From positions 1 to 64,000 of the forward strand of contig JAJDDQ010000085.1 of the NCBI GenBank assembly GCA_029260215.1: 64,000 bases of DNA. Direction: 5' to 3'. The notes under the pieces are model-generated. The model did no database searches and had not been told where the DNA came from. It was given only the letters and a program-made list of their open reading frames with translations. This stretch comes from Phycisphaerae bacterium. GTDB lineage: Bacteria > Planctomycetota > Phycisphaerae > UBA1845. The translations under genes were made by a program, and so were the position numbers. Below, piece by piece: positions 43,186 through 62,726 of this stretch. Position 1 is the stretch's first letter. Each line of letters begins with the position of its first letter.

Positions 43186-46035
43186 TTACGGCCGCGGACC
43201 GATCGAAGCACCCGCCCAAGGCTGACTCGACGGCGCGACGCCCGCAATCAACTGCCTGAAACGAAGCAAGTCCAGCGGGTCCACGCTGCCATTGCGATTC
43301 ATATCCAAATAGTCCGACACAAGACCGCAATCCGTCAAAGGCCCATCATCGACCAACTGGCGAAAGCGTAACAGGTCAAACGGAGAAACCGTTCCATTCT
43401 GATCGATGTCCGCTGGGAGGAATCCAAGGTCAACGCGATCCGGCTCGTCCACACCCGGGCCAAGGTTGCCAAGGTTTTCGATCACAAAACCCTGAGCGTT
43501 GTAAACCACCGCCTGAATCGTCGTCCACGCTTCAAACGCAATCGGCTGACTCCATTCCACATGGTAACGCGCCACATCACCGTCGATCATATTGACAGCC
43601 ACCACCACCGGCGGCTCGAACGGAAGCGTATGGCCCATAATGAAATTGTTGATCGCCACCGGTTCGCCCGCAGGGTTACCGAACACCGGCACGTTGAAAA
43701 CAATCTCCATCTCGGTCAATCCCAAAATCGCAATGGCATCGCCGATTTGCATCGTCTCCGCACGTGGATCGATGTAGCCCGAGCAGGGTCGCGTTTCACC
43801 AAGCAAACCGTTCGCGTGAACGATCCTCGGACGCTCCGCACACGCCGCCGCATCGCACGTAGAATTCAACCCTTGAAAGCTCCCGCCGAGCGGAGCGCAG
43901 ATCGTCGCCAACGTGATGGAGCACGATCCGTCCTCAAAGCAGCACGCGCCCTCCAACACAACCGCACAAAATTCCTGAGCACACGAAGTACCCATTCCCT
44001 GCGGGATTCCACCCGCCTCGGAACAGAAGGGCGCCGGCTCATCCGTGCAGCCTCCGTTGAGTCCGCAGCAAGCCTGAATCTGCGGCAAACAGAATACGTT
44101 CCCGCAGCCCATGCCCGCCCCGAGCGGCATTCCTTGCTGCAACTCACATTCCTCGGGCGTGACCACAGTGCAGACTCCTTCGGGCAGGCAGCAGCCTTGT
44201 GTTTCACCGGAACAATCCACAGTGTCGCACGTCGTCGCGAACCCCTGAAAAATACCGCCCAAAGGCGCGCACAAGTTGAAGGGAACCTCGGAACATCCGC
44301 CCGTTTCCAGAAAACAGCATGCCCCCTCCAGAGCGATCGGACAGAGCCCGTTGAAACACGTCGATCCTATCCCCTGCGGCGTTCCGCCCTGCTCCCGACA
44401 AAATGGCGGGAATGTCATCATGCAAAGTCCACTGCTCAGACAACACGCTTGCGTTTCCGGCAAGACGAGACAAGGTGTCGATTCGCAATCCGTCCCAGGC
44501 CCCCTCGGCACACCGTTTTCTGCAATACACGCTTCCCGAGGAAGGTCCGCACAGGTCTTGTTCGGCAGGCAACAGGCTTCGGTTTCGTTCCCACAATCAA
44601 CGTCCTCGCAGGTCGTTCCGGGGCCTTGAAACCGGCCGTCGTTGAATATGCAGTTCAACTGATGAACAACGTTGCACACACCGTCCGGCAGGCAGCACGC
44701 GCCAAGTGAAACGATGGGACAAAAAGTATTCAAACACGTCGTTCCCGCACCCTGCGGGATGCCGTCCTGCGCGAGACACACCATTGGCGGCACCACGGAA
44801 CACCCCTGCGCCCCCGGAAGACAGCAGGCTTGACCCTTGGGCGGGAAACACTCGATAACCTCACACGCCACGCCCGGATCCGCCGGCGTTCCACCCTCAG
44901 CCAGACAAGCTCCGACCGTCAATTCCGCACACGTTCCGTCCGGCAGGCAGCAGGCCGACAACAACGCAACGCACGTCGCATCCCCACACGGCGTGCCAGC
45001 CGGCAACGGAACGCCGTTTTCCTCTTCGCATTCGAAAGGAGCCAGTTCAACGCAACTCGAATCCGGCAAACAGCACGCCCGCGGCTGCTGATCGCAAAAT
45101 GCGAGAATGCAATTCGAACCAGCGCCTTGCGGCACACCTTTTTGAATCAAACACACCGTCGGCGGAATTATCGAACAACCACCCCCCGGCAAACAACACG
45201 CCTCCAGAATCGGCTGAAAACACCCGCTGATACCGCAGTCCGTCATAGGCCCCTGCGGAGAACCGCCGAGTTCCTCACACACGTCCGCCGGAACGTCCTG
45301 ACAAAACCCTCCAACGAAACAACACGCCTGCGAATTCTCCGGACAATCAACGCTGGAGCAATTACTACCCATACCCTGCGGCTCGCCCCCAACTGCACCA
45401 CAAACCGGCGGCGGCGTATCAAAACAACCGCCGTTAGCGAGACAGCACGCCTGGAAATTCGGCGGCAAACAATCCGCATCCTGACACGTCACCCCAGGCC
45501 CCTGCGGCATCCCGTTTTCGAGAAAACAGATAGACGGCGGGAGCAACGCACACTGATGTTCCGGTAAGCAGCAAGCCTCCACCAGCGGCGCGAAGCAAGA
45601 CCCCGCACTGCAACTCGTACCAGAACCGACCGCGAACCCACCTTCCTCGGCACAGGCTTCCGCCGACAGATCGAAACAAACATTCCCCCCAAAACAGCAT
45701 GCCTGCTCGACCCCCGAACAGCTCACGTCGTTACACGAAACCCCCGCACCCTGCGGCACGCCGCCCTGCGCTCCGCACACCGGCGGAAGCGTCACGACAC
45801 ATTCGCCGTTCGGCAGACAACACACCTCCAGCAAAGGCTGAAAGCAGTGCGCATCCTGGCACGTCCCCCCGACGACCTCACCGCCCGCTTCCCGGCACTC
45901 AGCCGGTGTGCCCATCACGCATCCGCCACCCGGCAAGCAGCACGCAGCCATCATTCCCTGCCCACGAGCATCAACGGTTATCCCAATTACAGCCGCGCAC
46001 GCGACTACCAAAATCATCGAAGTACGAACCAACAT
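43186..46035 (-). CDS. Secreted protein with 17 six-cysteine repeats and C-terminal dockerin-like EF-hands
   Basis: 949 residues. Signal peptide LVRTSMILVVACAAVIGITVDARG, then 17 tandem units of about 41-43 residues (about 25-740) with the plan CC-x5/6-C-x7-C-x13-C-x3/4-C, consensus ACCLPxGxC...PxxCxxxGGxPQGxGxxCxxxxC. That gives about 100 Cys, so an array of small disulfide modules. A beta domain follows (about 745-870, IVHANGLLGETRPCSGYIDPRA). The end has DIDQNGTVSPFDLLRFRQL and DMNRNGSVDPLDLLRFRQL, a paired dockerin type I motif. The ATG at 46035 has GGAGGG seven bases upstream. Partner and function unknown; likely a cell-surface scaffold or sheath. Confidence 0.85.
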   Translation of the reverse strand: MLVRTSMILVVACAAVIGITVDARGQGMMAACCLPGGGCVMGTPAECREAGGEVVGGTCQDAHCFQPLLEVCCLPNGECVVTLPPVCGAQGGVPQGAGVSCNDVSCSGVEQACCFGGNVCFDLSAEACAEEGGFAVGSGTSCSAGSCFAPLVEACCLPEHQCALLPPSICFLENGMPQGPGVTCQDADCLPPNFQACCLANGGCFDTPPPVCGAVGGEPQGMGSNCSSVDCPENSQACCFVGGFCQDVPADVCEELGGSPQGPMTDCGISGCFQPILEACCLPGGGCSIIPPTVCLIQKGVPQGAGSNCILAFCDQQPRACCLPDSSCVELAPFECEEENGVPLPAGTPCGDATCVALLSACCLPDGTCAELTVGACLAEGGTPADPGVACEVIECFPPKGQACCLPGAQGCSVVPPMVCLAQDGIPQGAGTTCLNTFCPIVSLGACCLPDGVCNVVHQLNCIFNDGRFQGPGTTCEDVDCGNETEACCLPNKTCADLPREACIAENGVPRGPGTDCESTPCLVLPETQACCLSSGLCMMTFPPFCREQGGTPQGIGSTCFNGLCPIALEGACCFLETGGCSEVPFNLCAPLGGIFQGFATTCDTVDCSGETQGCCLPEGVCTVVTPEECELQQGMPLGAGMGCGNVFCLPQIQACCGLNGGCTDEPAPFCSEAGGIPQGMGTSCAQEFCAVVLEGACCFEDGSCSITLATICAPLGGSFQGLNSTCDAAACAERPRIVHANGLLGETRPCSGYIDPRAETMQIGDAIAILGLTEMEIVFNVPVFGNPAGEPVAINNFIMGHTLPFEPPVVVAVNMIDGDVARYHVEWSQPIAFEAWTTIQAVVYNAQGFVIENLGNLGPGVDEPDRVDLGFLPADIDQNGTVSPFDLLRFRQLVDDGPLTDCGLVSDYLDMNRNGSVDPLDLLRFRQLIAGVAPSSQPWAGASIGPRP

Positions 46036-46481: not shown

Positions 46482-47144
46482 ATGGCTGTTATTGACAACG
46501 TCATCGCCCAACGCGCCGGAGAAACTCTAGGCTGGCGCGTCCGACGAATCCGCCAGGAACGAGGATGGACCCAAGCCGACCTCGTCAACCGAGCCGGAAT
46601 CAACCAGGGTTACCTATCAGCCATCGAACGCAACAAGAGCCTCCCCTCCCGGCGCACCATCGCAGCCCTCGCCACCGCACTCGACGTACCCCCCGCCATC
46701 CTCATCGGTGCCGGTTCCGAACACGACGCCCCCCAGCCCCTCGAATCGCGCGAACTACCCCTCTTTGGCTCCATTCCCGCCGGAAAACCGTCACAATCGC
46801 AGGAACAACTCGAAATGTTCCCCGTCCTCCAGCACCTCTGGGCACCCGACCGCTACTGCCTCAGACTCAACCTCGACAGCATGGAACCCACCCTAAAGCC
46901 CGACGACATCGTACTCGTCGCCTACCGCCCCAACGTAGACCCCGCCCACGTCCAAGGCCGAATCTGCGCCTGCCTCCTCGAAGGAAATCCAACCCTCAAA
47001 CGCGTCTCCGTCGAGACCCGAGCAGACCGCCGCCTGATCATCCTCAGAGGCGACAACCCCACCGCCTCACCAATAATGGTCGACGCCGATGACGAATTCT
47101 GCATCCAGGGCGTCGTCATAAAGCTCGTAGCCCGCGACCTTTAA
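46482..47144 (+). CDS. XRE-S24 (LexA/CI-like) self-cleaving repressor
   Basis: 220 residues. An N-terminal helix-turn-helix (GWRVRRIRQERGWTQADLVNRAGINQGYLSAIERNKSLPSRRTI, about 17-60) is followed by a S24 peptidase domain: possible cleavage site Ala100-Gly101 in GSIPAGKP, nucleophile Ser133 in LNLDSMEPTLKPDDIVLV, and base Lys173 in PTLKRVSVE. The Ser-Lys spacing (40) fits LexA/CI proteins, so autocleavage after DNA damage looks possible. This is the usual repressor of a prophage or integrated element. A perfect inverted repeat near the promoter of the next gene is a candidate operator. Confidence 0.85.
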   Translation: MAVIDNVIAQRAGETLGWRVRRIRQERGWTQADLVNRAGINQGYLSAIERNKSLPSRRTIAALATALDVPPAILIGAGSEHDAPQPLESRELPLFGSIPAGKPSQSQEQLEMFPVLQHLWAPDRYCLRLNLDSMEPTLKPDDIVLVAYRPNVDPAHVQGRICACLLEGNPTLKRVSVETRADRRLIILRGDNPTASPIMVDADDEFCIQGVVIKLVARDL

Positions 47145-47295: not shown

Positions 47296-48696
47296 ATGGG
47301 AAACAATACGAAAATCGAAAAAAACCGGGCCGTAACGCTCGGGCCGGTATCCAAACGATCCACAAGACGGGTCACAAGACGGACAGCCGACGTCGCCCTC
47401 CAATTCGGGCTGCCATTAAACAGCGATCCGGTCACCGTGCTCGACAAGATGCGCCTCAACCTGGGACCGGGACGCATCCTCCTCTTCCTCGGACCCAGCG
47501 GAGCGGGAAAATCCACCGCCCTGGCCCAACTCGCGTTACGCTGCGACGGCGGCGAGGACGTCGACCGCACACGCTTCCGCAAAGACACAGCACTCATCGA
47601 CGGCGTCTGCCCCGCTGAGCCGATCAGCCACGCCATCAACGTGATGGCCTCCTGCGGACTGGGGCAGGCCAATCTCTGGCTCAGGCGCTACGACGAACTC
47701 AGCGAGGGGCAGCGCTTCCGCGCACGATTGGCCCGCGCCGTCGGCAGACACATCAAAGCCAACGCGACCGCCCCGCTCCTCTGCGACGAATTCGGCAGTC
47801 GCCTCCACAACCGCCTCACCCAAGCCATCGCGTTCAACCTGCGCAAGCTCGTCTCAAGACATCGCCTCTGCCTCGTCGCCACCACCAACGACGAAAGCGT
47901 CGCCCGAGATTTGCAACCCGACGTCACCATCCGCCTCACCTCCGCAGGCCGATGCACCATCGCAAACACAACCACCATCAAAAAAGCGGTCAGCTTCCGC
48001 CGCCGACTGCGCATCGAACGAGGCTGCAAAGCGGACTACGACGCCTTCGCCGCCATGCACTACCGCGCCACCGACGAACTCGGCTTCGTAGACAAAATTT
48101 TCATCATGCGCGAAGGCCTCAACGGCGAACCGCTGGGCATCGTCGTCTATTCGCACGGCCCACTCGAACTCACACTCCGCAACCGCGCGACCAAAGGCCG
48201 ATTCGTCCGCAACCCCCAACGGCTCAATCGAGAAATGCGCATCCTGCGCAGACTCGTCATCCATCCCGACGTACGCGGCTGCGGCCTCGGACATTGGCTC
48301 GTGCGCAAAACGCTCCCGCTCGTCGGAACGCCCTACGTCGAGTGCCTAGCCAACATGGGGCGCGTCAATCCCGTCTTTGAAAAAGCGGGCATGATACGTA
48401 TCGGAGAATGTGCAGCCCCCAACCATCGAACCAAAGCATTGGCCGAGCTCAAAAGCATAAAAGTGGACCCCTCCGGGCGCGATTTCGTCATGCAGGTCAG
48501 CCGTCGCGAACGTGTGCGGCGCATCGTCGCGGACACCGTGTACCGCTGGTACGCAGCCACAACCGCCGGCGGGGAGCGTCGCGTCGCACGTCAGGCGCCG
48601 GAGTTTCTCGCACAAATCTTCCGAGGATTGGTGGGATCAAAACCCGTGTATTTCCTATGGCACAAGCCCGCAAACCGCTGCCGAAAGGGGACGTAA
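47296..48696 (+). CDS. ABC-type ATPase fused to a GNAT acetyltransferase domain
   Basis: 466 residues. Residues about 50-215 form an ABC ATPase: Walker A GPSGAGKST (66-74), signature LSEGQ (135-139), Walker B LLCDEF with Asp164/Glu165. The switch His is not seen: the site reads VATTNDES. No membrane domain is present, so it is not a transporter. Residues about 235-440 form a GNAT-like domain with RRLVIHPDVRGCGLGHWLVRKTL (acetyl-CoA loop RGxGLG) and ECLANMGRVNPVFEKAGM. This architecture recalls COG2401 (ABC ATPase fused to a predicted acetyltransferase), whose role is unclear. GGGGGAAA precedes the ATG. Coupled with the next gene (TAA immediately followed by ATG). Confidence 0.82.
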   Translation: MGNNTKIEKNRAVTLGPVSKRSTRRVTRRTADVALQFGLPLNSDPVTVLDKMRLNLGPGRILLFLGPSGAGKSTALAQLALRCDGGEDVDRTRFRKDTALIDGVCPAEPISHAINVMASCGLGQANLWLRRYDELSEGQRFRARLARAVGRHIKANATAPLLCDEFGSRLHNRLTQAIAFNLRKLVSRHRLCLVATTNDESVARDLQPDVTIRLTSAGRCTIANTTTIKKAVSFRRRLRIERGCKADYDAFAAMHYRATDELGFVDKIFIMREGLNGEPLGIVVYSHGPLELTLRNRATKGRFVRNPQRLNREMRILRRLVIHPDVRGCGLGHWLVRKTLPLVGTPYVECLANMGRVNPVFEKAGMIRIGECAAPNHRTKALAELKSIKVDPSGRDFVMQVSRRERVRRIVADTVYRWYAATTAGGERRVARQAPEFLAQIFRGLVGSKPVYFLWHKPANRCRKGT

Positions 48697-52310: not shown

Positions 52311-53596
52311 CAGGGCAATCACATCTAATCATCGTGGCGGGGGCGGTTTTTGGTCTGTTCGGCGGAGTCTGGCCGATATTTAGAACTGGAATGAACTGGT
52401 GAGGCCTCGCGATCAACGCAAATGATCGTTGAAAGGAGCGGCGACATGGACGTCGAAGCCCCGCGTGGCTTGCTGCGCGTATTTGACCAAGTGGAGGATC
52501 CGCGTGTGGAGCGGACCAAGCTCCATCGTCTTTCGCACATTCTGGTGATTGCTCTTTGCGGCGTCATCTGTGGAGCCGACAGCTGGACGGAGATCGAACT
52601 GTTCGACAAGGCAAAGTTCGCTTGGCTGCGGACTCTTCTGGAACTGCCGCACGGCATTCCTTCTCACGACACCTTCGGCCGGGTTTTCAGCAAACTGAAT
52701 CCCGAACAACTGGAACGATGTTTCCCGACGTGGATGCAAGCCTTGGCCCAAATCGGCGGCGGGCGGTTGGTTGCGATTGACGGCAAGACGCGCAGTCGCA
52801 GCTTCGACAAAGCGCACGGCAAGGCCGCCCTTCACATGGTCAGCGCTTGGTGCCAAACCAATCATCTCGTCCTGGGGCAATTGGCCACCGACACCAAGAG
52901 CAATGAAATCACGGCAATTCCCAAGCTCCTGAAGCTGTTGGACATCTCTGATTTGGTCGTGACAATCGACGCGATGGGTTGTCAAAAGGCCATCGCCAAG
53001 CAATTCGTGGAGCAAGAAGGACACTATCTTATTCAGGTCAAGGGGAACCAGGAAACCCTCCGCGATCGGCTGAAAAAGACGTTCGACGAGTTGACACGTC
53101 GCCCTGTCCCCGGCGTGCCGTACCGCTTTCACGAAGAAGTCGACAGCGGCCACGGTAGGGTGGAGACCCGGCGCATATGGACCACGGAATGGACCGATTG
53201 GTACGATCGGCGTGCCGACTGGGCGGGGTTGCGGAGCTTTGTTTGCGTGGAAAGCGAACGAAGCATTCACGGTCGAACGTCGACCGATCGTCGGTACTAC
53301 ATAAGCGACTTGGGCGGGGTTGACGCTCGAACCATGCTCGAATACGTCCGGGGACATTGGGGCATCGAAAACCGCCTGCACTGGTCGCTGGACGTAACCT
53401 TCCACGAAGACATGCTTCGCAATCGGGTGGGCCACTCCGCAGAAAACTTCTCGAGAATTCGTCGCCTGGCCCTGAACCTTCTACGCCGCGACAAAACCTG
53501 CAAGGCCGGCGTCAAATGAAAACGCCTTCAGGCCTGCCTCAGGGAGGATTACCTATTGCGGATACTCGGACAGGGATCTTAGATGCGATTGCCCCG
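52311..53596 (+). mobile_element. ISAs1-family insertion sequence
   Basis: Ends: left CAGGGCAATCACATCTAA (52311-52328), right TTAGATGCGATTGCCCCG (53579-53596). The 16 bp GGGCAATCRCATCTAA are inverted with one mismatch, and CAGGG ends are typical for the family. Length about 1286 bp with one transposase gene. The flanks GGTCTCGCCC and GGTCGCGGTT match only partly, so a target duplication is not certain. Confidence 0.8.
52446..53519 (+). CDS. ISAs1-family transposase
   Basis: 357 residues. N-terminal DDE_Tnp_1-associated region (FDQVEDPRVERTKLHRLSHILVIALCGVICGADSW, HDTFGRVFSKLNPEQLE) and the catalytic domain: LVAIDGKTRSRSF (first Asp), VVTIDAMGCQKAIAKQF (second Asp) and WGIENRLHWSLDVTFHEDMLRNR (Glu). 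The ATG at 52446 has AAAGGAG nine bases before it, better than the one at 52422. No frameshift or stop is visible, so the element may still be active. Confidence 0.92.
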   Translation: MDVEAPRGLLRVFDQVEDPRVERTKLHRLSHILVIALCGVICGADSWTEIELFDKAKFAWLRTLLELPHGIPSHDTFGRVFSKLNPEQLERCFPTWMQALAQIGGGRLVAIDGKTRSRSFDKAHGKAALHMVSAWCQTNHLVLGQLATDTKSNEITAIPKLLKLLDISDLVVTIDAMGCQKAIAKQFVEQEGHYLIQVKGNQETLRDRLKKTFDELTRRPVPGVPYRFHEEVDSGHGRVETRRIWTTEWTDWYDRRADWAGLRSFVCVESERSIHGRTSTDRRYYISDLGGVDARTMLEYVRGHWGIENRLHWSLDVTFHEDMLRNRVGHSAENFSRIRRLALNLLRRDKTCKAGVK

Positions 53597-53710: not shown

Positions 53711-56554
53711 TTATCGCAGCGCTCTGGCGTCCTGTGTGACGAGGATGACCGCTGGGGTGATGCGGGTTGGTTCTATCTTGCCGTTGTCGGTGGCGACGAG
53801 ATAGGTTTGCCCGTCTTTTGGTACGTCGATTACGAACGTTCCTACAGCGTCTTCGGACGCGCGGTATGTGAATGTTGCGAGATAGGCTGACGCGGGCGTC
53901 TCGACGCCTTCGCCGACGAGTCCGCACAGCACTTGGCTTTTCTCGATGTTGGTTGCGTCGAACGTGTCGCCTCGTCCGTTGAACACGAATGCCTGTGTCC
54001 GTTCAAGCTCGACGGCTACGAGTTCAAGTGTTCCGGCGCGTCCGCCGCTGACGTCCAGATCGAGCTGGTAGCCACGGAGGTCGTCGAGGGGTTGGGTGAG
54101 AATAACTTTTACGTCTACCGTTTCGCCCCGGCTTAGGCAACGTTGGTCGGCGTCGACGGTGATTCCTGTTTGTCCAACGACGATGGGATCAACGGTCGGC
54201 GCGGGTCCGTTGGCTGGGCAGGAACAGGGGTTCGCTTGGGCAAAGGCCGCCAAGGCGTGGTTGGCATCAAACAGGTTGCAGAATCCATCGGGCGCACAAT
54301 CGCCGAATGGGCCACCGGCATCGATGTTGATCCCGTCGCACGGGTTGACGTCGGCGAAACACAGCAGCGCGTGGTTGGCGTCAAATGCGTTCGCGAATCC
54401 GTCGCTGGGGCAGAGGCCGAACGCGCCGCCCATGTCGGCGAAGATTCTGGGGGCGAGGCTGCACGAACCGTCACACGTAAAGAAGAAGCAATTGTCGTCC
54501 ACGATTCCGAACGGCGGAAGCGCGTCGCCGCATTGGGTGGCAGTGGTGCATGGAACACCGATTTCGACCGTGATGTTCAGTGGTTGATATTGGGCGATGA
54601 TCTGCCCGGCACCGGTTTGGTCGCTAAGTCCTGATCCTCCGTCCGGCGGCATGCCGACGGGTATGAAATTGAGCGTGAATGCGCTGATCGCGCCCGGTGA
54701 GGCCGTAAGTTGGAACTCGCCGAGGTAAGCCAACCCGTTGATCACGTTACCCTGGCCGAACGGCAGAGTCCCAATGAATGCAAAACCGTCGGGCAACCCG
54801 CCCTCCGCATAGAACACGGTGGCTTGTGCGGCGAGGGGAAAGAGTGCCCAATCTGAGCGGGCCTGATCGACCAGAACCGAGTCTCCGATGGGGACACCGG
54901 GGTTATTGTCGACGTAGGTTACGGTTCCGTTGGCTCCGCCCTGGGGCGTTGCGGTGCCCTCGATGGCAATCTGATAACCGCCGAGCGATTGCGGATCGGT
55001 ATCGGCCAGCCAAACCTCAACAGTTACGCTTCCGCCCTGTGCCATTGTGAGGGAGGTGGGGCCGTTGGCCGGCGCGCTCACTTGCTGCCCCGCGCGAACC
55101 ATGAATACGCGCGTGTCGCCCGGGTCCGGTCCGCATACACCGGCCTGACAGATTCCGGTTCCTCCATCGCACGGGCCACCTTCGTTGGCTGGCGTGAGAA
55201 TTGTACAGTTGCCTTCGCCGCCCGACGGATCGCACGAGGCGGCATTGCAGTCATCGCCGGCTGCAGCGCAATCAACAGGGTTGCCCACACAAGTTGTTCC
55301 GGAGCAGATTTCGTTGACCGTGCATACGTCACCGTCGTCGCAAGGCAAGGTGCAGATGGGGTATTCCCAGCCAATGGCGTCGAGAACGGTCAAATCGGGC
55401 GTGCGCATGAAGTTAGGCCAAAACGACTGTCCCGATGCGATGTTGGGGTCCATGATGGCATTGACGGATTCATCAAAATGCGACGCCTGCCATGGGTTGC
55501 CGTCCTCCATTTGGTATTCGAGCGTTCCGAGGTCGGTGTAGTGCTGGTTGTTGGGATTGTCGCAGGAACCGATACGCGGTGCGGTCTGGAATTCCATCAC
55601 GGTATCCGGGTCGTAGTCGCAGCATCCGTCCACGCCGGAGAAGCGGAAGATATCCATCATCTCCATCGCGTTGCTGCCGTTGAAGCACTGATCGTCGACG
55701 CCCGAGGTGAACCCCATTGCATGGATGACCTCATGCACGAGCACGGATTGGAAGTCAGTCGTTCCGCCGGATATGCCGTTTGACGGGTCATAATCCCAGG
55801 AAAAAGCGGTATTGAACGTCATGCCGGCGGCGAGGTTCGACGCGGAGCCGACCGTTGCTTTGTAGTTGGCGCGCGTGACGTCGATGAAGAACTCGTTGGT
55901 GATCGTGTCGCTACTTCCGTTGTAGCGGACCGGGCATGCGCTTCCCGCGGGCAGGAATGCCTGAATGGAGTCGTCTCCGTCCATGCCGTTGATGAGTCCG
56001 TTACGCACGGTGGTGTAGGATGGGAAGACATAGTTGCTGCCCGTGGCACCAAGAACGCCTCCGCCGAGATTCGCATACGACACATTGATCTGGAATGTTA
56101 CGACGTCGGCGAACAGCCCTTCGATATATGTTTCGACGGTTGCGATAGCGGGCAGTGCTGCGGCTGGAACCGAGGCTGCGTTGCTGAAAATAATGTTCAC
56201 GCCGCCACCCTCTGGTTTCTGCGGCTGCGGAGCCTGTAGCGCCTTGTCGAATTCGTTGCGCAGCGGCTCTGTCTGGCGCATGAACTCCTTGCGGGTGATG
56301 TTGGGTTTGCCTCCGCACATTGGCCGCCACTTCGTCTTTGAGGGCCATGCGACGACGCTGCCATCGTTGTAGAGCGTCGACACGACTACCGGTCCTGGCT
56401 CCACGATCAGGAAGCTCTCGTTCTGAACTGCGGCGGCGTTCTGCTCGCTAAGTTTCTGAACCTCCGGCGGCGGCGTCTCAGCCAGCAAATCAGAAAGGCC
56501 CAGTGACAGTGAGGCGACCACCAGAGCGCAGCGTATTGACGATGGCAGGTACAT
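53711..56554 (-). CDS. Secreted zinc metalloprotease (NF038122-like) with dockerin/cohesin-like C-terminal module
   Basis: 947 residues. Signal peptide (LVVASLSLGLSDLLAE), a protease domain (about 90-400) with VHEVIHAMGFTSG, the zinc site HExxHxxGF (His274), and a later SVNAIMDPNIASGQ that may supply the Met-turn. A Cys-rich link follows (about 405-480, CDDGDVCTVNEIC...GDDCNAASC), and then a 465-residue tail: cohesin-like domain 1 (TRVFMVRAGQQ...DTDPQSLGGYQIAI), a double dockerin-like block (DGFANAFDANHALLCFADVNPCD and DGFCNLFDANHALAAFAQANPC) and cohesin-like domain 2 ending TQDARALR. GGGAGAA precedes the ATG at 56554. The same tail occurs in the upstream giant gene. The gap to it (187 bases) holds no gene. 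Confidence 0.82.
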   Translation of the reverse strand: MYLPSSIRCALVVASLSLGLSDLLAETPPPEVQKLSEQNAAAVQNESFLIVEPGPVVVSTLYNDGSVVAWPSKTKWRPMCGGKPNITRKEFMRQTEPLRNEFDKALQAPQPQKPEGGGVNIIFSNAASVPAAALPAIATVETYIEGLFADVVTFQINVSYANLGGGVLGATGSNYVFPSYTTVRNGLINGMDGDDSIQAFLPAGSACPVRYNGSSDTITNEFFIDVTRANYKATVGSASNLAAGMTFNTAFSWDYDPSNGISGGTTDFQSVLVHEVIHAMGFTSGVDDQCFNGSNAMEMMDIFRFSGVDGCCDYDPDTVMEFQTAPRIGSCDNPNNQHYTDLGTLEYQMEDGNPWQASHFDESVNAIMDPNIASGQSFWPNFMRTPDLTVLDAIGWEYPICTLPCDDGDVCTVNEICSGTTCVGNPVDCAAAGDDCNAASCDPSGGEGNCTILTPANEGGPCDGGTGICQAGVCGPDPGDTRVFMVRAGQQVSAPANGPTSLTMAQGGSVTVEVWLADTDPQSLGGYQIAIEGTATPQGGANGTVTYVDNNPGVPIGDSVLVDQARSDWALFPLAAQATVFYAEGGLPDGFAFIGTLPFGQGNVINGLAYLGEFQLTASPGAISAFTLNFIPVGMPPDGGSGLSDQTGAGQIIAQYQPLNITVEIGVPCTTATQCGDALPPFGIVDDNCFFFTCDGSCSLAPRIFADMGGAFGLCPSDGFANAFDANHALLCFADVNPCDGINIDAGGPFGDCAPDGFCNLFDANHALAAFAQANPCSCPANGPAPTVDPIVVGQTGITVDADQRCLSRGETVDVKVILTQPLDDLRGYQLDLDVSGGRAGTLELVAVELERTQAFVFNGRGDTFDATNIEKSQVLCGLVGEGVETPASAYLATFTYRASEDAVGTFVIDVPKDGQTYLVATDNGKIEPTRITPAVILVTQDARALR

Positions 56555-56741
56555 GAATTTCTCCCACGAATGAAATGTTCGTTGCGAACCCAATGGCACC
56601 CGAATCGCCACCCCACAGGCCGCTGCATTGATCTCAAGGCGACGCATCACCCGAGAGCAATCATAGGCCTAATGGCGAATCCCGTCGAAAAAGGACGCGG
56701 AGCGAGCACAAGCACCCGCTCCGCGTCGGGATTACCGCACG

Positions 56742-59700
56742 CTAACGAACCGCTCGCGCCTGGCCGGTGGAAACCACAACCACCGCGGGCGATGTCGAAG
56801 TCAGTTCGATTTTTCCGTCTCCGTCGGCGACGAAGTAAGTCTGTCCGTCGAGCGGAATGTCAATCACAAACGTGCCGGCAGCATCGTCGGACACGCGATA
56901 AGTCAACGTCGCGAGGTAGCCGCTCGCCTTCGCTCGCATTCCTCCACCGATCAGGCTTGCGAGCAGTTGCTGCCTGTCGACGTTGGACGCGGTCAGGACA
57001 TCGGTTCGCCGCGCGAACACATAATCCGCACGTGACTCGATTTGCAAATCGACCAGTTCAAGCCGGCCTCTGCGACCGCCGCTGACGGCTGCGTCGAGTT
57101 GATAGCTCTGCAAGTTGGCCTGCTCGCCCTTCAGGTGGACTGTTACCGTGACGGTGTCACCCGGTGTCGCCAAGCGACGGTCCGCCGCCAGGGTCAAACC
57201 GGTTTGACTGACGATCGTCGGCGCTACGACGGGTGCCGGGCCGTCAGCGGGACACGAACAAGTGCTGACCTCGGCGAACGCGAGCAGGATGAGGTTGACA
57301 TCGAACACGTTGCAGAAGCCATCAGCCGGGCACGCGCCGAAATCCGACCCTACGTCGATGTTTATCACATCACAGGGTGAGACTTGCGCAAAGCACGCCA
57401 AGACCAGGTTGGCGTCGAAGATGTTCGGGAATCCATCCGGATTACAGTCTCCGAACGGGCCTCCGACATCGCCGTACACGCGGGGCGTGGCTGAGCAAGC
57501 GTTTCCGTTGCACGCGTAGAACATGCATTGATCATCCACGACGCCGTCCACCACGATCGCATCGCCGCAGTCGGTGGCGGTCGTACACATTTCCTCGCCT
57601 ATGACGATGTTCAGTGTTTGATACTGTGCGAAAATTTGCAGGCCTGCGCTGTCGTTCAGGCCGGTTCCGCCATCGGGCGGTTGGCCCACGGGAACGAAAC
57701 CGAGCGTGAAAGAACCAGTCGCATCAGGTGAGGCTGACACGTCAAACTCGCCCAGATAAGCCAAGCCGTTGATAGACAGGCCAGTTCCGAAAGTCAGACC
57801 TGAAGCGAATGCGAAACCAGCCGGGAGACCACCCTCAGCATAAAAGACAGCCGGGGCTTGGGCGATGAATGCCCAGTCCGATCGAGCGGTATCGATGAAC
57901 ACGGAATCACCTCCGGGTACACCTGGGCTGATGTCCACATAGGAGATCATTCCGGCTGCTCCAACGTCAGGCGATGCGGCGCCGGGGATCGCGATCTGGT
58001 AACCATTGAGCAACTCGGGATCGGTATCCGCCACCCAGATTTCAATGGTCGCGGTGGTACCCGCCGCCATAGTCATGGACGTCGGCCCAAAGGCAGGTGC
58101 GCCCGCCTGCTGACCAGTGCGTGCCATGAACACGCGCGTGGCACCCGGATCGACGCAAACGCCCATATCGCAGATGCCCGTGCCACCGTTGCAGGCACCG
58201 CCCTCATTGATGAAGGTCAGTGTTGCACAGTTTCCGTCCGCACCGGCTGCGTCGCATGAGGCTGCGTTGCAGTCGTCACCCGCACCGGAACAGTCGACCG
58301 GCGTACCGATGCACGCCAAGCCCACGCACGCATCGCCGATTGTGCAGGCGTCACTGTCGGAACAAGGCTCGATGCATTCGCAGTCATCGGGCACACCGTT
58401 GGGGCCGCTGGGGTTGCCACCCGGGTTGTAGGCAGGATCAACGTCGAACTGAGTTCTCGCCTCCAACTCGCAACCGTCGGACTGGCCGTCGTTGTCGCAA
58501 TCGGCCAACGTCTGACATTCGTCGGGGACCAGGTCAGGTCGACCGTGGCTGCCGGTGTCGGAAAGGAACGCTTCAAGATCGGCGAAATCCTGCTGGACAA
58601 AGCCGAGGAATTGCCCGCCAGGGTGATCGCCACTGGCGAAAAACGTCCAGATGAAGTCGCGTCGATGGTCGCGGATGTTCGGCCCGGGGAATCCCATGCC
58701 GCCCGTGCCGTCGACATTGTGGCAGAACTGGCAGTTGGCCAGGAGCAGCGTTTGGCCGTCGGTCACATTGCCGACCGGGCCGCCGTCGCAATCTGCGCTG
58801 GCCACGCCGTTTCCGTCCGGGTCGGAAATATCAACATCGCAGCCGTCGGGTATGCCGTTGCTGTTGCAATCGTCGCACGACGTATCGCCTATGGGGCAGT
58901 TCGCAATGTCGACGGCATCGTCGATACCGTTACCGTTGCAATCGACGATTGAAGAGCAAACGCGGAATGCGTCCAAGCCGCCTTCAACAATACTCGCTGC
59001 GCCAGTGTCGTTGATCGTGTAACGAAGCTGCATGTTCGCGGTCAATGTGATGCCCGCCAAGTCCAGATCCGCCTGGGTGATCAGGTTCGATCGCCACGAG
59101 GTTCCACCGTCTGTGGTGTGCAATGCAACCTGAGTCCACGGGCCGGCGACGCCGTTGCTGCTGATTTCAACAAGCAACCGATCTGTTCCGTCCGAATTGG
59201 TGAGATTGAGATAGTAGTCGTATTCGATGCGAATGCCGCCACCAGACATGTTGATGTCCGGGGAATTAAGACGTACTGATCCGCCGTCAACATCCGTGTT
59301 GCCCGCCTGATTTTGAGTAAGAAAACACTGCCCACTGCCGTCGGAATCGGAAAGCGGGTCGAAATCCCACCCGGGATCGTTCACAGGTACACCGCGTTCC
59401 CAATCCCCGGTAGACGCACCAAGGTTGGTCGGAACCCAGCCCTGGTCAGTCTGGAAGTCGTCCGCGAACACTACGAAATCGCACGGTGCGATGAATTGGC
59501 AGTTGGCATCACACGTCGTGCCGTCCGGAGGATCGCAATCCTCGCCGGTCTCGATCACGCTGTTTCCGCACACGGCCGGGTTGTTGCACTCGATCTTGTT
59601 CACCGAGCCGCCCTGGGATACCCAGTACAATTCGCCCGAAGCATCTTCGCCGAATGACACAACCGAACTGATCGATCCGATGTCCGGCTGCAATTCCACA

Positions 59701-62700
59701 GTGCGGTCCGCAAAGTCCGTCAAAGTTGTTCCGTCGTACCGGAACGTCTGGATGCTGTCATCGCAGAAGTCAGACACGAAATACGTACCGGACAGACCAA
59801 TAATGTCGCAGCCGCGATAGACGAAGCCGCCCGTGATCGAACAGGGGCTTGGGAACCCGCCGGTGTGGGCAACGTCGTAAATGGGATCGGTAAGCCCAGC
59901 CGCACCGCAGACGCAACCATACCCGCCGCTGTTGGTAGGTGTGCATATAAAGCCTTCCTCGCAGTCCCATCCGTAGTTTTCACCGCCAGTGCTCGCGGCT
60001 GGCTGGAAGTCGATTTCCTCACGAGCGTCTTGCCCGACATCCCCGATGTACATATCGCCGGTCAGGCGGTCGAACGAGAATCGCCACGGGTTGCGCAGGC
60101 CAAGCGCCCAGATTTCGTCCAGCGGAGCGCCCGGGCCTACGAATGGATTGTCGACCGGAATGTAAGGGGGTGCAGCGTTCACATCGAGGCGAAGCATCTT
60201 CCCAAGGAGCGAACTTGTATTCTGTGCGCGATTGTTGGGATCGTCAGCGGCACCGCCGTCGCCCATGCCCACGTAAAGCATGCCGTCCGGGCCAAACTGC
60301 AGTTGGCCTCCGTTGTGGTTGGCGAAATCCTGCACGATCGTTTTGAGGATGAGCGCGCTGCCGGAATCGGCTGTGTTCGACGCGGGATTGCCACCCGTGG
60401 CTGTGTATCGTGCCACAACAGTGTTGCCGGAAGTATTCGTGTAGTTGACGTAGAATCGCCCGTTCGCGTTCCAGTTGGGATCGAAGGCCATGCTGAGAAG
60501 GCCCTGCTCGCCGCCACTGGTGATAATGCCGGAGAGGTTGATGTAATCCGCACCGAGCACGGACTCGGTATTCAGGTCAATAATTCTGATACGCCCACCC
60601 TGCTGAACAGCAAACAGTCGGTTCAAGTCGCCAGGAGGCGCGAAGACACCCGTCGGGGACGACAGGCCGGCTACGATCCGACGTGAGGTCAACTGGCACA
60701 GTGCCTCGCATTCATCCGGAATACCGTTGCCGTTGCAGTCCTGCACGTCGCCGTTGGCGATGTCCATACCGTCTTCCACGCCGTTGTTATTGCAATCCTG
60801 CGGACCAACCGCCAGCGGCCCCTGGGTGGCGACCGCCATGCTCCCGCCAGTCTTGAAAAAGCCGACCGTACTGTTGACCGCCTGCGGACCGGAATTGGCG
60901 TCAAATCGGAAGTTGTACAGCGTGCCGAATCGAATCGCGTTAGCCTGTGCGTTCTGACCTACCGTCTGCGTCGCCCACGTGATCGCTCCACCAGTGGTGG
61001 ACACCGTCCAGGGCACGTTGGAATACTGCTCGGAAGCGGAAACTCCTGCGTCATTGTGGTTGGGCGGAAAGTGCATGTCGATATTGGTCAACAAAACGCC
61101 AGCGGGTATCGGCACGCTGAATTCGCGCATCGAACGGTCCATGTTCTGGTTGTGAACTGCGTATTCGTAGTGGAATTGCCCACCACCGAGATCGGTCACC
61201 CTGTAGGACAGAGACCCGCGGCCATCCACCGTCGGTGCCGGCTCGATCATGACCTGAGTGGCGGTCGTCCACGCGTTGACAGCCGGCTGCTCGCGAACGG
61301 TCGCGCCGACATTGTTAAAGCCAAACGGGTTGCCGTTGTTATTCGAGTCAGTCACCGACAGTTCGCGATAGGAGGCATTGTTGTGCATGTTCTGAGCGGC
61401 GAACGCTTGAGCATTGTTGAATTCGTGGGGAGTCAGGTATTGGCCTTCAGAGAAGTATCGAGCGCCCGTATTCAAGGAGGGAATGAGATCCTGATCCATG
61501 ACTTGTAAGCGGTGCGTGACGCCGCCGTGCGCATGCCCGCGATGATCTCGCGAAGGAAAGTTGCTGCTGCTGCACGGGCTGCCGCCGAGATTTCCGCCGC
61601 CTGGTGTGACGCCCGTGTACGGATTGAGCTGAGCACGAGGCCCCAAACCGCAAAACGATCCGTTTCGACTTTGGCTGTACGGATCCGAGCATCCGACGCC
61701 CAAAAGCGTCCCGCCTGCACCCGGGTCAGTGCAGCCGAAGCCGCACGCATTCAATTGGAGGGCAAAGAAACCGTGCTTCATCCATGAGTAGCCGACCTGC
61801 TCGAAACGCTCGCTTCCACTCACCGTTTTCAAGCGGTAAAGATTCATCGGAATCATGGGATGGTCCCCATTGGGGAGCGCAAACCAGTTGAACGGCGTGT
61901 CGCCTTTGTTGCACGAAGTCGTCGCGACAGCCAAGCCAACCTGGCCGTTGGGGTAGGTGCCGGTGCGACCTTCTTGGCCGGTGCTCGGGAGATCACCGAC
62001 GATGACGTCAGGCCCCGGATTCGGGAAACCCTCAGCCGGCTGCGTGGGCTGAGGATACATCGTAAACGATTCTACATCCCCTTCGGCATTGAGCGCGACT
62101 GATTCGGTCAGCGACACGTTGATGGACACAGCGAAACGCCCTGCACGCATGCCAGCCAACGATTTGTCGCCAAGATGCTGCGCAAGCTCCGGTGCGATGG
62201 CCAAGCCGGCGTTGATTCCGAATAAACCGTTGTCCGAATCAAACGACGCTTGCGCCACGCTCAACGTGAACAACCGCAGGCCATCTTTGCTGTCGGCGTA
62301 GACCGAAAACTCCCGATCCGACTGCCCAAAGGCATCATGCACGAGCACGATTGCGGTGCCCGAAAGTACTGTTTTTCCGAACTGGGAGAAATGAAAGGCT
62401 CCATCGGCGGTGATTTCGCCACCCAGATACCGTTCGACAGCATCTCCCGACGCAACGATAGTATACGTGTCCGTCACGTGCGTCATCTGGAAGCGCCGGC
62501 TGATCCTGTCCCCGACGGGTGACGCATCGACGACGTCGCTCGGGGCGGTCGCGCTCAGCAACTCACCGTCGAGGACGATTTCCAGAATACCACCCGTCGC
62601 AACATAGGTGTCTTTGTAGACCAAGCTCACGTTCTCGTCGGGCACCGAGGCCCCCAATACCAAGCATGAGCACAGAATAGTCAAAGCCGAAACGACGCGG

Positions 62701-62726
62701 CTCCGTCCGAACGCCTGACGAATCAT
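56742..62726 (-). CDS. Giant exported sugar dehydrogenase-like protein with c-type heme site and the shared C-terminal module
   Basis: 1994 residues. Signal peptide (VVSALTILCSCLVLGAS). A planctomycete-type domain of unknown role (about 30-650) and a dockerin-like Asn/Asp stretch (NNNGVEDGMD) lead to a glucose/sorbosone dehydrogenase-like six-bladed propeller (about 680-1045: GLSSPTGVFAPPGD, GEQGLLSMAFDPNW, NHNGGQLQFGPDGMLYVGMGDGG, WALGLRNPWRFSFD, YIGDVGQDAREEIDF). A MAM-like domain comes next (about 1085-1240), then a cytochrome c-like segment with heme motif CQFCH (1332-1336), a Cys-rich link (about 1452-1525) and the same C-terminal module as the metalloprotease (about 1530-1994, ending QARAVR). 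GAGGAG stands 6 bases before the ATG. It may oxidise sugars outside the cell and pass electrons to heme. Confidence 0.82.
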   Translation of the reverse strand: MIRQAFGRSRVVSALTILCSCLVLGASVPDENVSLVYKDTYVATGGILEIVLDGELLSATAPSDVVDASPVGDRISRRFQMTHVTDTYTIVASGDAVERYLGGEITADGAFHFSQFGKTVLSGTAIVLVHDAFGQSDREFSVYADSKDGLRLFTLSVAQASFDSDNGLFGINAGLAIAPELAQHLGDKSLAGMRAGRFAVSINVSLTESVALNAEGDVESFTMYPQPTQPAEGFPNPGPDVIVGDLPSTGQEGRTGTYPNGQVGLAVATTSCNKGDTPFNWFALPNGDHPMIPMNLYRLKTVSGSERFEQVGYSWMKHGFFALQLNACGFGCTDPGAGGTLLGVGCSDPYSQSRNGSFCGLGPRAQLNPYTGVTPGGGNLGGSPCSSSNFPSRDHRGHAHGGVTHRLQVMDQDLIPSLNTGARYFSEGQYLTPHEFNNAQAFAAQNMHNNASYRELSVTDSNNNGNPFGFNNVGATVREQPAVNAWTTATQVMIEPAPTVDGRGSLSYRVTDLGGGQFHYEYAVHNQNMDRSMREFSVPIPAGVLLTNIDMHFPPNHNDAGVSASEQYSNVPWTVSTTGGAITWATQTVGQNAQANAIRFGTLYNFRFDANSGPQAVNSTVGFFKTGGSMAVATQGPLAVGPQDCNNNGVEDGMDIANGDVQDCNGNGIPDECEALCQLTSRRIVAGLSSPTGVFAPPGDLNRLFAVQQGGRIRIIDLNTESVLGADYINLSGIITSGGEQGLLSMAFDPNWNANGRFYVNYTNTSGNTVVARYTATGGNPASNTADSGSALILKTIVQDFANHNGGQLQFGPDGMLYVGMGDGGAADDPNNRAQNTSSLLGKMLRLDVNAAPPYIPVDNPFVGPGAPLDEIWALGLRNPWRFSFDRLTGDMYIGDVGQDAREEIDFQPAASTGGENYGWDCEEGFICTPTNSGGYGCVCGAAGLTDPIYDVAHTGGFPSPCSITGGFVYRGCDIIGLSGTYFVSDFCDDSIQTFRYDGTTLTDFADRTVELQPDIGSISSVVSFGEDASGELYWVSQGGSVNKIECNNPAVCGNSVIETGEDCDPPDGTTCDANCQFIAPCDFVVFADDFQTDQGWVPTNLGASTGDWERGVPVNDPGWDFDPLSDSDGSGQCFLTQNQAGNTDVDGGSVRLNSPDINMSGGGIRIEYDYYLNLTNSDGTDRLLVEISSNGVAGPWTQVALHTTDGGTSWRSNLITQADLDLAGITLTANMQLRYTINDTGAASIVEGGLDAFRVCSSIVDCNGNGIDDAVDIANCPIGDTSCDDCNSNGIPDGCDVDISDPDGNGVASADCDGGPVGNVTDGQTLLLANCQFCHNVDGTGGMGFPGPNIRDHRRDFIWTFFASGDHPGGQFLGFVQQDFADLEAFLSDTGSHGRPDLVPDECQTLADCDNDGQSDGCELEARTQFDVDPAYNPGGNPSGPNGVPDDCECIEPCSDSDACTIGDACVGLACIGTPVDCSGAGDDCNAASCDAAGADGNCATLTFINEGGACNGGTGICDMGVCVDPGATRVFMARTGQQAGAPAFGPTSMTMAAGTTATIEIWVADTDPELLNGYQIAIPGAASPDVGAAGMISYVDISPGVPGGDSVFIDTARSDWAFIAQAPAVFYAEGGLPAGFAFASGLTFGTGLSINGLAYLGEFDVSASPDATGSFTLGFVPVGQPPDGGTGLNDSAGLQIFAQYQTLNIVIGEEMCTTATDCGDAIVVDGVVDDQCMFYACNGNACSATPRVYGDVGGPFGDCNPDGFPNIFDANLVLACFAQVSPCDVINIDVGSDFGACPADGFCNVFDVNLILLAFAEVSTCSCPADGPAPVVAPTIVSQTGLTLAADRRLATPGDTVTVTVHLKGEQANLQSYQLDAAVSGGRRGRLELVDLQIESRADYVFARRTDVLTASNVDRQQLLASLIGGGMRAKASGYLATLTYRVSDDAAGTFVIDIPLDGQTYFVADGDGKIELTSTSPAVVVVSTGQARAVR

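Follow-up and report, generated by a model that had tools for sequence, protein, structure and literature searches.

Among described proteins, the closest counterpart of the repeat unit analyzed in this work lies within the iRhom homology domain (IRHD), a 240-residue, 16-Cys domain of the rhomboid pseudoproteases iRhom1 (RHBDF1) and iRhom2 (RHBDF2). In two papers this domain is said to have no known structural relatives and is called unprecedented (PMC11248996, PMC10148629); the former also describes it as disulfide-bonded (PMC11248996), and eight bonds are named for it in the literature. On the bacterial side, the protein envelope of planctomycetes has been described biochemically as Cys-rich and disulfide-linked (PMC3035269), and Cys-rich wall proteins of the YTV type have been reported only in the Planctomycetales (PMC8567305). 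Here, we analyze a protein encoded in a stretch of 64,000 nucleotides (the window) from contig JAJDDQ010000085.1 of a Phycisphaerae bacterium, and compare its six-Cys repeat units with these systems.

Gene and protein architecture

The 949-residue protein (Table 1) contains 105 Cys (11% of its residues), in line with the approximately 100 estimated in a first-pass annotation of this DNA, and 102 of them fall within the repeat units. A script counted exactly 17 units starting with CC, with a period of 40-43 residues, which is the number previously obtained by eye. The general spacing is CC-x5/6-C-x7-C-x11/13-C-x4-C, a pattern matched 17 times in the protein, against a mean of 0.01 and a maximum of 2 in 5000 composition-preserving shuffles. 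The CC pair and four further Cys occur in all units, as had been proposed, but the spacing is identical (CC-x5-C-x7-C-x13-C-x4-C) only in 14 of the 17, with x6 in units 10 and 14 and x11 in unit 1. Likewise, the PQGxG motif placed between the fourth and fifth Cys is exact in 7/17 units and replaced by variants in the others (FQGPG, PRGPG, PLGAG and more), and the supposed alternation of L-P and F types is absent: CC is followed by F only in units 3, 6, 14 and 17, by LP in ten and by LA, LS or GL in three. The units have diverged (32-50% identity to unit 1) but all of them retain six Cys and one Gly, which gives the impression of an old array that has been maintained. The protein begins with a hydrophobic, signal-peptide-like stretch recognized by eye, from which we infer the export that had been asserted earlier.

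Table 1. Features of the gene encoding the 949-residue protein (window coordinates)
Feature	Protein residues	Coordinates	Strand	Basis
Open reading frame, 949 aa	1-949	43186..46035	-	ATG start
Signal-peptide-like N-terminal segment, MLVRTSMILVVACAAVIGITVDARGQ	1-26	45958..46035	-	translation; cleavage site by eye
17 six-Cys units, 40-43 residues each	31-732	43840..45945	-	script and per-unit profile search
Ig-like-looking segment, GYIDPRxE ... FNVPV ... WTTI ... DEPDRVDLGFLP	736-872	43420..43830	-	genome recurrence; no Pfam hit; 'Ig-like' by eye
Dockerin type I-like duplicated Ca-loop segment	875-926	43258..43413	-	Pfam PF00404, E 7e-5
Conserved tail ending in -RP	927-949	43189..43257	-	alignment of C-terminal modules

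The dockerin end reported at first pass was recovered by Pfam, Dockerin_1 scoring 23.4 bits against a cut-off of 22.9 (E 7e-5), with two Ca-loop-like repeats, DIDQNGTVSPFD and DMNRNGSVDPLD; it is only part of a lineage-specific C-terminal module formed by the last 210 residues (43189-43830, minus strand). This module comprises the Ig-like-looking segment (GYIDPRxES...), the dockerin-like duplicate and a tail in which, along the module alignment, W206 and P215 are invariant and most rows end in RP, QP or LP. It recurs at 31 other loci of the host genome (L002-L030 of G000 among them) with about 30-52% identity. A search of 150 genomes of the class detected it in members of the same family only, with 20 copies or more in two sister genomes. 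With type I dockerins it shares the duplicated Ca-loop segment, just above the Pfam cut-off, but it differs from them in its conserved -RP tail, in the lack of a detected cohesin (0 matches to PF00963 in the 97%-complete genome; one control genome matched) and in its fixed partner, the dockerin part being fused to one conserved segment in 12/12 aligned copies. The latter points to an anchor or to pairing within the molecule, and the module as a whole resembles an anchoring or sorting device specific to the lineage.

Proteins of about 1595 aa in sister genomes combine 27-28 units with the C-terminus of the window protein, so that array length changes while the architecture stays. These counterparts (L241, 2319-7109, and L242, 2435-7219, both on the minus strand) are interrupted by another Cys-rich motif (CCDPALEPGxGxxPxCFEGAxCCANGxWxCNGP...), which is absent from the window array. 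Neighboring ORFs in the window encode an HTH and S24-peptidase (LexA/CI-like) regulator (46482-47144, plus strand) and an ABC-type ATPase (47296-48696, plus strand), neither of which was seen close to the counterparts of this gene in sister genomes. A DDE transposase gene with its associated domain according to Pfam (52422-53519, plus strand), possibly an insertion element, and two very long ORFs on the minus strand, of 979 aa without Pfam hit (53711-56650) and of 1994 aa (56742-62726), are also present.

Distribution of the six-Cys module

The whole protein and 52 two-unit segments gave no consistent match of the unit to Pfam or NCBIfam models, EGF, DUF4215 and PSI domains, whose comparison had been proposed, being included in the Pfam search. 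Like these three domains, the units are small, Cys-rich and putatively extracellular repeats. A literature search returned no paper on the module, and the motif ACCLPDG had no match in paper texts. The earlier statement that the unit could not be assigned to a named family is thus borne out for these model collections, although one solved relative exists, a part of the IRHD.

The first profile detected 57 units at E 1e-3 in the host genome (4.97 Mb, 88 contigs, 97% complete), spread over more than a dozen other ORFs that include a multicopper oxidase with CBM96, a lamin-tail (LTD) protein and a Rax2-type beta-propeller. Another genome of the phylum (G003) also carries an array, and units were detected at E 1e-3 in 23 of the 382 genomes of the phylum sample, inside and outside the class of the window. 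A scan of genome contigs with the profile of the window array alone gave nothing because single-protein patterns are too specific; a broader profile (A3) then gave matches. The scan of named species genomes yielded 134 loci, 80 of which were kept, nearly all in MAGs of Planctomycetota (Phycisphaerae and Planctomycetia), where proteins carry from 1 to about 33 units and the longest ORFs about 27-33. A few MAGs are labelled otherwise, by label only, as Myxococcales (L155), Bacteroidia (L174), Cyanobacteria (L142), Zixibacteria (L211) and Proteobacteria (L212), and the plasmid and phage collections contained no units at the sensitivity used. In the alignments of bacterial units, loops are variable and Cys fixed, and no column is nearly invariant besides the Cys and a few Gly. 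The six-Cys module is a real, widespread and unnamed bacterial family.

A knottin register (C-x4-C-x6-CC-x5-C-x7-C) was considered and set aside, since an isolated unit can run from CC to C-x4-C with no neighbors. In the Rax2-type beta-propeller (L083, 2372-4381, plus strand, contig C63 of G000) the first unit of the inserted array has no CC part and a lone ACC stands at the array end; together, these halves might complete a single split unit at the insertion neck. Beyond the end of the window, a few kilobases downstream on the same contig, a second module-bearing ORF (L090, contig C84, 7805-10027, plus strand; 741 aa, no Pfam hit) contains two isolated units.

Similarity to the iRhom homology domain

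Profiles built from bacterial units only were searched against 177,635 PDB sequences. With the 17 units of the window (A1), iRhom1 and iRhom2 ranked first (E 0.06); with 65 bacterial units from three genomes (A2), iRhom1 and iRhom2 were matched with E 5.7e-5 and 1.5e-4, respectively, the next non-iRhom protein being at 0.63; and with 62 units from the named-genome scan (A4), independent of A2, only iRhoms were retrieved (E 0.0035-0.0077), no other hit appearing up to E 10. All six Cys are aligned between the A2 and A4 profiles and iRhom1/2, the match in iRhom2 covers residues 570-606, and the profile-profile probability given by hhalign for unit and iRhom segment was 88.7-91.3. When the iRhom segments were shuffled with the Cys fixed and the other residues permuted, 0/8000 sequences reached the observed score, and the match is therefore more than a Cys skeleton. 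A weak half match (7.7-8.6 bits with A2 and A4) about 100 residues upstream in iRhom1 is perhaps a degenerate second copy.

The likeness to the six-Cys segment of the human proteins (PDB 8SNL, 9O58, 9XY4, 9Q7Y) thus extends to the Cys spacing (CC-x6-C-x7-C-x13-C-x4-C in iRhom, shared with bacterial units), the non-Cys residues and the predicted fold, and also to the side of the membrane, the iRhom segment being luminal and the bacterial unit probably exported. In contrast, iRhoms have one full copy, plus the possible half copy, inside the IRHD, which lies between TM1 and TM2, whereas in bacteria the units occur singly or as arrays and a rhomboid core is lacking. Pfam found no rhomboid domain in the 949-residue protein, which consists of signal-like segment, array and C-terminal module, and since this core is absent, the protein is not an iRhom.

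Predicted fold and disulfide pairing

The structure prediction for a two-unit fragment, suggested in the first-pass annotation, was run with AlphaFold2 on units 4-5 of the window with their bacterial relatives and no templates (pLDDT 91.3, pTM 0.54). In the model, the unit is predicted as a 36-residue domain with a beta hairpin, a short helix and an extended segment or strand leading to the last two Cys; a rigid rod is not implied, as this pTM leaves the geometry between units undefined. A Foldseek search of 350,542 PDB chains placed 8snl (iRhom2), 9xy4 and 9q7y (iRhom1) as the top three matches, with probabilities of 0.98, 0.98 and 0.87, the next match being at 0.08, and superposition of 1.5-1.6 A over 39-40 residues, at weak E-values of 0.5-1.9. 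A second model was built for a sequence of a different genome with a variant Cys layout; it reached a moderate pLDDT of 68 and again placed iRhom1 and iRhom2 first (0.80 and 0.54; next 0.09). Taking both models together, the deviation from iRhom1/2 is 1.5-2.1 A over about 40 residues. The VIA structural alignment spans iRhom2 residues 568-610, coinciding with the sequence match, with Z of 2.9-3.9, low in absolute terms. A BFVD fold search gave nothing convincing. As the iRhom structures were released from 2024, they presumably were not part of the AlphaFold2 training set. Because the Foldseek E-values and the Z scores are weak, the identification of the fold rests on rank, probability and agreement with the sequence match, and because the domain is short, the models give moderate support to a fold shared by the unit and the iRhom six-Cys segment.

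The unit is probably a three-disulfide domain. In a survey of 907 unit segments, Cys were lost jointly: (i) C1 with C4 in three settings, namely twelve last units of a four-unit family, L108 and L113, (ii) C2 with C6 in L209 and L206, and (iii) C3 with C5 in L139. Because these pairs vanish together, bonds C1-C4, C2-C6 and C3-C5 are suggested; a further four segments, from which both C1 and C2 are missing, depart from this pattern and look truncated or mis-bounded. The C2-C6 bond appears the least certain, since C6 is often missing alone. C6 was lacking in 37 of 47 units with an extra Cys adjoining C4, as compared with 72 of 766 without it (p 2e-26, or 2e-11 without the L171 array, with tandem copies and relatives not being independent). 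The array of L171 (3545-8347, plus strand) has about 27 units, the majority with a CC at the fourth Cys position and no sixth Cys, as if the disulfide partner had migrated. Replacement of a missing C6 by a Cys located 5-6 residues upstream of CC was not supported (odds ratio 0.92, p 0.85). The host genome contains a VKOR gene.

Discussion

Taken together, we consider it reasonably likely that the window encodes a chain of three-disulfide units that share the fold of the iRhom segment and are probably its homologs, and that this chain would be exported, oxidized and held at the surface in a structural or adhesive role in the envelope. The bacterium would export the 949-residue chain; each unit would be oxidized, with bonds C1-C4, C2-C6 and C3-C5, giving a string of hard, stable beads; the Ig-like/dockerin-like module common to 32 loci would hold the chain at the surface; and the chain would thereby act as a disulfide-hardened structural or adhesive component of the cell envelope. 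With somewhat less assurance, though still on the favorable side, we regard the module as homologous to a core part of the IRHD and as its free-standing bacterial counterpart, the animal domain controlling ADAM17/TNF release having been taken from, or sharing ancestry with, bacterial exported repeats.

The main rival to a structural role is ligand binding, a possible but clearly less probable reading in which the units form a high-avidity array for a polysaccharide or other surface ligand and strength is a by-product. The variable loops around fixed Cys would suit it, as would the short runs of units in varied proteins such as the multicopper oxidase with CBM96 and the lamin-tail protein, which resemble accessory binding domains; indeed, a binding role is also in keeping with the presence of units within multi-domain proteins (multicopper oxidase, LTD proteins, beta-propeller). 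Nevertheless, with only the Cys and a few Gly nearly invariant, a shared binding site is not evident. In secreted proteins, small disulfide domains repeated in tandem frequently act as inhibitors, and an array of Kazal- or TIL-like protease inhibitors directed against predators or competitors would agree with distant Kazal-type rows obtained with the second model; their probability was 0.02 or less, however, and no inhibitor family was consistently matched in Pfam, so that we hold this to be improbable.

Regarding the likeness to iRhom, it is unlikely that unrelated peptides converged on the same Cys skeleton. A short, probably disulfide-dominated domain, weak Foldseek E-values and the lack of a phylogenetic bridge between bacteria and animals in this analysis speak for convergence, but no Cys-fixed shuffle reached the observed score and two independent profiles retrieved essentially only iRhoms from the PDB sequences. 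A scaffoldin- or cellulosome-like assembly through the dockerin is very improbable. The C-terminal Dockerin_1 match, within a module common to 31 other loci, would suit it, but the partner segment of the dockerin part is fixed and cohesin was not found in the 97%-complete genome. Least probable of all is a metallothionein-like, metal-binding storage protein with free thiols. Whereas the Cys content would allow it, the signal-like N-terminus, the loss of Cys two at a time, the VKOR gene and the disulfide-bonded state of the iRhom domain (PMC11248996) point to disulfides rather than free thiols.

Within the envelope reading that we prefer, the 949-residue protein resembles the YTV wall proteins of Planctomycetales in being a Cys-rich, putatively exported planctomycete protein, but differs in that their domain, PF07639, was not matched in it by Pfam. 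A genome search for PF07639 gave no match either and, as the control also had no match anywhere, is not proof of absence.

It was surprising that the single solved relative of a module so common, and yet without Pfam or NCBIfam model, is a part of the IRHD, previously thought to have no relatives. With a bacterial family of hundreds of sequences, the IRHD would acquire a relative and, along with it, natural limits for the unit, a deep alignment and a map of disulfides that can be put to the test. In planctomycetes, the same family would be a defined set of exported, Cys-rich repeat proteins, which might explain the Cys-rich, disulfide-stabilized envelope (PMC3035269). We hypothesize that array proteins are candidates for the Cys-rich envelope material elsewhere in the phylum, where arrays could supply such material in lineages reported without YTV wall proteins (PMC8567305).
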